A stretch of 64,000 nt of DNA from assembly GCF_000189775.2 (NCBI RefSeq), contig NC_015555.1:1933001-1997000 (forward strand). The letters run 5' to 3'. The stretch comes from Thermoanaerobacterium xylanolyticum LX-11. Lineage in GTDB: Bacteria > Bacillota > Thermoanaerobacteria > Thermoanaerobacterales > Thermoanaerobacteraceae. Under the pieces are notes generated by a model. The model did not search any database. It was not told the origin of the DNA and saw only the letters and a program-made list of their open reading frames with translations. The translations under genes and the position numbers were made by a program. Each line of letters begins with the position of its first letter. The first letter of the stretch is position 1. Below are positions 37,484-37,581 of this stretch, in pieces.

Positions 37484-37526
37484 TTTTTTTTTTTTTTTTT
37501 TTTTTTTTTTTTTTTTTTTTTTTTTT
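37484..37526. repeat. Homopolymer tract of 43 T
   Basis: An uninterrupted run of 43 T on the plus strand, flanked by TCTGAA and GAATTTT. It ends 26 bp before the -35 of the HD-GYP promoter. Runs of this length are very rare in bacterial genomes and prone to slippage, in the cell or during sequencing. Confidence 0.9.
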
Positions 37527-37552
37527 GAATTTTATTACAATGCATGAAATTA

Positions 37553-37581
37553 TTGACTACTCCAAAGAATTATAATATAAT
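37553..37581 (+). promoter_or_regulatory. Promoter of the HD-GYP gene
   Basis: TTGACT (37553-37558), 17-bp spacer, TATAAT (37576-37581). The T tract just upstream would act as an A/T-rich UP element. The start codon follows 30 nt after the -10, with AAGGGG in between. Confidence 0.75.

Follow-up and report, generated by a model that had tools for sequence, protein, structure and literature searches.

The window analysed here, a stretch of 64,000 nucleotides from Thermoanaerobacterium xylanolyticum LX-11, contains a run of 43 consecutive T residues (T43) between two divergently transcribed genes (Table 1). The gene downstream of the run probably encodes an HD-GYP phosphodiesterase for cyclic di-GMP (c-di-GMP); its translation matches Pfam HD_5 at 2.5e-29 and contains HDIGK and HHERLDGTGYP, the domain assignment being firm and the activity predicted. 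This assignment and the 26 bp between the tract and the −35 hexamer had both been recorded in the initial annotation, and both were confirmed. The same annotation had placed a ComK-like promoter 34 bp away on the opposite strand. A divergent promoter was indeed found there, with a gap of 33 bp rather than 34, and the likeness of its gene to ComK held in part: the match to PF06338 covers nearly the full model (E=0.0019), but its 18.4 bits fall below the cut-off of 22.3, and no ComK match was found in the two orthologs scanned. The tract lies upstream of both divergent promoters and in no leader, and the suggestion that its length would change a leader spacing is therefore weak.

Table 1. Features around the T43 tract, in window coordinates
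Feature	Position	Strand	Basis or remark
Weakly ComK-like protein, 192 amino acids	36814..37392	−	7 relatives within the genus have an ortholog at this position
CGAACTAATGTTTG, LexA (SOS) box-like	37403..37416		Between the ComK-like gene and its promoter
Divergent promoter of the neighbour gene, TTGACT-17-TATAAT	37422..37450	−	Promoter scan
T43 homopolymer	37484..37526	+	About −62 to −104 relative to the predicted transcription start
AT-rich 26-bp spacer from tract to −35, starting GAATTTTATTAC	37527..37552	+	
Sigma-A type promoter of the HD-GYP gene, TTGACT-17-TATAAT	37553..37581	+	Promoter scan; kept in relatives
TTGTCGAA, putative Spo0A box-like site, at the predicted transcription start	37587..37594	+	Identity presumed
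GGGG, likely ribosome-binding site	37599..37602	+	Sequence
Stand-alone HD-GYP domain protein, 199 amino acids, probable c-di-GMP phosphodiesterase	37612..38211	+	Pfam HD_5, motifs
S-adenosylmethionine (SAM) riboswitch, upstream of metK	39581..39682		

No other run of comparable length was found in this DNA. A run scan of the window gave T9 as the second-longest run, and a genome-wide word count gave no further T or A run of at least 16 in the 2,534,358 bases. Since one strand has 28 overlapping T16 words and the opposite strand has 0, with a single start of a run of T14 or longer, the genome contains exactly one T43. Assuming independent bases of the window's composition, 2e-14 runs of at least T43 would be expected in 2.53 Mb; the expectation under independence for T or A runs of at least 16 is 0.07 per genome. 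An intrinsic terminator was considered and rejected, as there were 0 terminator-like sites in 37380-37640, no hairpin was present and the genes diverge.

The tract was conserved at the homologous site in two genera of the family. At E≤1e-40, 19 of the 20 family genomes have an ortholog of the HD-GYP gene, the exception being G009, and 18 genomes were assessable, G008 having been excluded since its contig begins at the gene. A T run of at least 14 was present in 14 of these 18 (range 14 to 113), with lengths given as assembled; exact values are uncertain, and in several assemblies the sequence is broken at a tract of this kind. Within the window's genus the runs were T43 in the window, T20 (G002), T41 (G003), T58 (G001), T113 (G006), T72 (G005), an interrupted T14-G-T18 (G004), and T52 and T95 at two contig ends (G007). 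Within the second genus they were T45 (G010), T29 (G018), T73 (G014), T33 (G015), T18 (G019) and at least T22 in G017, where one contig breaks off within the tract and a second begins within the promoter, the two being presumed adjacent. The T's were always on the coding strand where the tract was visible, and GAA or GGAA followed it directly in relatives wherever its right edge could be seen. In the window and in six further genomes of its genus, 26 bp separate the tract from the −35 hexamer. The spacing in G005, judged by eye, is 27 bp, and at a paralog in G005 it is 25 bp, whereas seven members of the second genus have 15-16 bp; the 26-bp and 15-16-bp distances differ by about one helical turn. 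Since independent genomes from two genera share the tract at this position, its presence is no assembly artefact, an origin that the initial annotation had entertained.

On the far side of the tract, members of the sister genus have a pyruvate:ferredoxin-oxidoreductase-like or permease-like gene (by eye). Because the upstream neighbour differs in this way between the genera, the tract goes with the HD-GYP side, and its assignment to the ComK-like gene was ruled out.

Tract length varied strongly among close relatives; the comparisons are between species, with one genome per species. G014 and G012, which are two species, have T73 and T6, respectively, within flanks identical at 632/632 and 198/198 aligned positions, with zero mismatches over 748+682 bp (about 1.4 kb) and two gap openings. 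A difference of this size within substitution-free flanks indicates that tract length is hypervariable. Similarly, G018 has T29 where G014 has T73, at 98.1% identity over promoter and gene, and at a locus preceding a FapA gene G012 has T7 and G015 T25 in 95% identical DNA. This pattern is what slippage gives, and slipped-strand mispairing, as first suggested in the annotation, probably alters tract length; the variation that supports it is that between species.

Long tracts were also found at other loci across the class. A search of 37 genomes for runs of at least 29 returned 37 places, which were merged to 32 loci (four to one at FapA in G015, two to one at an HD-GYP operon in G015 and two to one at contig ends in G007). 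A T70 in G011 stands outside the 32, its contig-end position having been missed by the search pattern. Loci were typed by their flanking genes, with Pfam applied to one member of most groups and the others assigned by sequence likeness. Of the 32 loci, 26 have the tract in a 5' region of one of three kinds: 18 belong to c-di-GMP enzyme genes or operons, 5 to methyl-accepting chemotaxis protein (MCP) genes and 3 to FapA genes. The 18 comprised 12 window-type HD-GYP genes, 3 operons that combine genes for a PucR-type regulator and an HD-GYP protein with, where visible, an MCP gene, and one each of a membrane HD-GYP gene, a gene for a 553-amino-acid HD-GYP protein and a GAF-GGDEF gene. The idea of a link to c-di-GMP, raised for a single gene, is thus strengthened well beyond that gene. 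Paralogous HD-GYP genes bear tracts of their own (T60 in G005, T77 in G014), and the two HD-GYP tracts of G014 are the sole runs of at least 16 in that genome. Both tract orientations occur, in different genes. At the GAF-GGDEF gene of family f4, which may be Caldicellulosiruptor-like, 9 of 13 genomes have an A-run at the same place (A30, 25, 24, 23, 19, 18, 18, 12 and 11).

The association extended to c-di-GMP riboswitches and to other families. An Rfam c-di-GMP riboswitch was found downstream of a long tract in five genomes: c-di-GMP-I in G016 and G011 and, in other families, in G104 and G238, and the related c-di-GMP-I-GGC in G303. Beyond the riboswitch lay genes for FapA (G016), a GGDEF-EAL protein (G011), a PAS-GGDEF-HD-GYP protein (G104), an MCP behind a transposase-like gene (G238) and CheW (G303). 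Among 398 genomes of the phylum, a run of at least 29 was present in 13 of 21 class members versus 10 of 377 others (Fisher 2e-13). These 10 genomes hold 15 merged loci, 7 of which are at c-di-GMP or chemotaxis genes: CheW in G303, MCP in G157, HD-GYP in G133, HD-GYP with MCP and a second HD-GYP gene in G219, and the riboswitch loci of G238 (MCP) and G104 (GGDEF-HD-GYP). The others were a PucR-type regulator that has a GGDEF-like gene in its vicinity (G288), a contig bearing the G133 HD-GYP promoter sequence (G133 C63), other genes behind a terminator-like hairpin (G219 C9), and contig-end or low-complexity runs of artefactual appearance in G063 (twice), G239 and G247 (twice). Of an estimated 96,000 genes, 837 encode HD_5, GGDEF or MCP proteins, a share of about 0.9%. 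Such genes adjoin 6 of 11 locus classes, which were grouped by eye; with four chances per locus and a guessed gene density of 0.98 per kb, the binomial tail is 6e-7, a rough figure.

Many tract genes have the sequence AGGAWTT-N10-TGTCGAA, or a near variant, 1-30 bp past the tract (15 loci measured), and this resembles the C. difficile sigma-H promoters listed in passages of PMC7438776. The window genome has 13 matches to the strict pattern and 0 to its reversal, and family genomes have 8-15 and 0-1, respectively; the pattern is less frequent outside the family. The window HD-GYP gene is not among the 13 sites, its promoter being of sigma-A type. As judged from sequence, TGTCGA stands at or near +1 in 15 of the 15 group A promoters scored, and TTGTCGAA at the predicted start of the window gene resembles a Spo0A box. 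A search for Spo0A control of B. subtilis pdeH found no statement of it in the passages, and such control is not relied on here.

Further observations were made at individual loci. In G005 (L124, G005:C1:2785500-2790000), an A73 precedes by about 12 nt the ribosome-binding-site-like GGGGAGG of an HD-GYP gene; by eye, the reading frame that follows seems to be broken close to an A10 run, and across the tract begins what may be a response-regulator gene. In the one-contig genome G015 (L120, G015:C1:736500-740500), alternating A, T and C blocks occupy positions 1651-2045 upstream of FapA, a mosaic that is probably a finishing error at a real T-tract. A group II intron-like RNA (Rfam RF02001) lies near the FapA-locus tract in L110 (G013:C49) and L114 (G016). 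Finally, G009 has ten runs of 15 to 27 nt (L327 and L328, G009:C1:1221000-1253500) upstream of small peptide genes, several with bacteriocin-like leaders MEAVMPMNGFMELTE...GG, and within closely similar flanks (T-strand ...TATCCAATTTCAGCCG[Tn]GAATTAT); T39 and T32 occur elsewhere in G009, and G002 and G016 have similar elements. The G009 runs form a second family of tracts, whose lengths differ within a single genome.

We lean, by a modest degree, towards the view that the window tract is a conserved, length-hypervariable poly(dA:dT) element that tunes the promoter of a c-di-GMP phosphodiesterase gene and is one of a class-wide set of promoter-proximal contingency tracts. Under this model, slipped-strand mispairing would shift tract length. 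With the tract 1-30 bp upstream of the −35 hexamer, as predicted for many of the genes (promoters of sigma-A or sigma-H type), a shift would alter both the rigid AT-rich DNA ahead of the promoter and the way it is axially aligned, and promoter strength would change as a result, as with sabA of Helicobacter pylori. Tract length would in this way alter expression, and the outcome would be a population of cells differing in c-di-GMP enzyme levels. More tentatively, we propose that these hypermutable poly(dA:dT) tracts are selected and dispersed before c-di-GMP enzymes, c-di-GMP riboswitches and chemotaxis genes, and that slippage may re-tune the nodes of the network independently of one another. 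In passages of PMC4081817, T-tract length at sabA affects RNA polymerase binding via alignment of UP-like elements upstream, an A-tract 3 nt from a −35 showed a length effect, and protection at −95 to −50 is reported.

Several observations weigh against tuning by tract length. At pyrG, where 30 nt separate the T-tract from the −35, length had no effect, and UP elements past −60 are not shown active in E. coli, according to passages of PMC4081817; the window tract, at 26 bp, falls outside the 20-nt limit of the sabA-like class in the same paper. Four of the 18 assessable family genomes have a short run or none (G016 T9, G013 T7, G012 T6, G011 T5), as does the G005 copy of the HD-GYP operon, and 6 of the 32 long class-wide tracts adjoin other genes. 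In 4 of the 13 f4 genomes the GGDEF gene has A7 (two) or no run (two), and the A-tract at that gene lies downstream of a TATAAT-like site, so that a single mechanism may not fit all loci. In addition, 0 of the 13 sigma-H-like promoters of the window genome have a run of at least 9 within 150 nt upstream.

The main rival is a static element, either an UP element or an AT box of the spoVG kind, in which long AT-rich DNA lifts promoter activity through the C-terminal domain of the RNA polymerase alpha subunit (alpha-CTD) and length drifts freely above a threshold; we regard it as unlikely, though it is the strongest of the alternatives. The spoVG gene of B. subtilis has a sigma-H promoter with an AT-rich upstream element (passages of PMC2801614). 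The sigma-H type sequence just downstream of the tract in many genes fits this parallel, and the occurrence of both orientations is what a property of double-stranded DNA predicts. UP elements span about −40 to −60, and the tract begins at about −62 in the window and −51 in the sister genus, relative to predicted starts; a strict-sense UP element seems unlikely for the window gene, the tract probably being too far upstream. An UP element requires about 20 bp of mixed AT sequence, and against this stand tracts of up to 113 pure T's and the swing from T73 to T6 between close relatives. The absence of runs of at least 9 from all 13 sigma-H-like sites likewise speaks against a static element, and it rules out the tract as a general trait of sigma-H promoters in the window genome. 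As the window gene itself is without such a promoter, the tract follows gene function and not promoter type.

A neutral mutational hot spot, at which a run past some threshold expands and persists by slippage without selection, would account for the wildly varying lengths and for the four family genomes with a short run or none; with only 0.07 runs expected per genome, any founder would be conspicuous. We consider it improbable, because placement is non-random: 26 of the 32 class-wide loci are at c-di-GMP, chemotaxis or FapA genes, and tracts recur at non-homologous genes and in other families, which gives the rough binomial value above.

A platform for a poly(dA:dT)-binding protein, or an element acting in the mRNA where the tract is transcribed, would suit the f4 GGDEF gene, with its A-tract between a TATAAT-like site and the ribosome-binding site, and a G005 gene for a 294-amino-acid HD-GYP protein with a tract close ahead of its ribosome-binding site. 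This explanation is very improbable, since in locus groups A, B and C the tract lies upstream of a recognisable promoter; no candidate binding protein is in hand, and none was searched for. An assembly or sequencing artefact, to which the G015 mosaic and six contigs terminating within a tract might point, is hardly credible, as site and orientation repeat across many independent assemblies with the GAA edge kept and the flanks intact, and contig ends within a tract (G007, two loci of G017, G013, G011, G303) fit true long runs, which break short-read assembly.

On the opposite side of the intergenic region, CGAACTAATGTTTG resembles a LexA box, and relatives have similar sequences there. The next gene on the strand of the ComK-like gene is recD2; together with the LexA-like site, this suggests that the pair may be regulated by DNA damage. 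The SAM riboswitch upstream of metK is ordinary.

Most known contingency loci of the simple-sequence type belong to host-adapted pathogens and act on surface genes. If tract length tunes output, the choice between motile and sessile life would be made stochastically and heritably through the c-di-GMP network itself, and contingency loci would here act on second-messenger enzymes of free-living thermophiles rather than on pathogen surface antigens. The proposal would also account for the breaking of some assemblies at these promoters, and the tracts offer a direct test of the effect of poly(dA:dT) length on promoters.

Among the matches listed from the open-access literature on homopolymers, c-di-GMP and these genera, the passages contained no description of giant homopolymer tracts at c-di-GMP genes; the known systems each share part of the present case. 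The AT-rich DNA upstream of the B. subtilis spoVG promoter is bound by alpha-CTD, as may be the case here, but in the passages of PMC2801614 it is described neither as a homopolymer nor as varying, and the window promoter is of sigma-A type. Poly(A) and poly(T) tracts are treated as hypermutable regulators across prokaryotes in PMC2831843, whose passages concern short coding-region tracts (up to 7 bases) and inlA frameshifts. For P. aeruginosa, passages of PMC8115180 propose promoter-region homopolymer indels as phase variation and also discuss c-di-GMP enzymes; there, however, indels are enriched before membrane and cell-wall genes in hypermutators, c-di-GMP shifts are a separate matter, and no giant tracts conserved at c-di-GMP genes appear in those passages. 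A phase-variable c-di-GMP phosphodiesterase is already known in another Firmicute, C. difficile, in which variation upstream of pdcB is likewise stochastic but arises from an invertible promoter and site-specific recombination (passages of PMC9286219) rather than from a homopolymer. The closest likeness is to H. pylori, where, in the passages of PMC4081817, sabA has a pure T-run upstream of its −35 whose length varies greatly between strains, some tracts lie between divergent promoters, and a change in axial alignment and RNA polymerase binding is proposed. Those tracts are 9-18 nt long, over-represented at outer-membrane protein genes of a host-adapted pathogen, and lacZ fusions showed their effect, whereas the tracts described here are several times longer (14-113 nt at the HD-GYP gene), lie at c-di-GMP and chemotaxis genes, stand 26 bp from the −35 in the window, and would act on expression by an effect that we infer.
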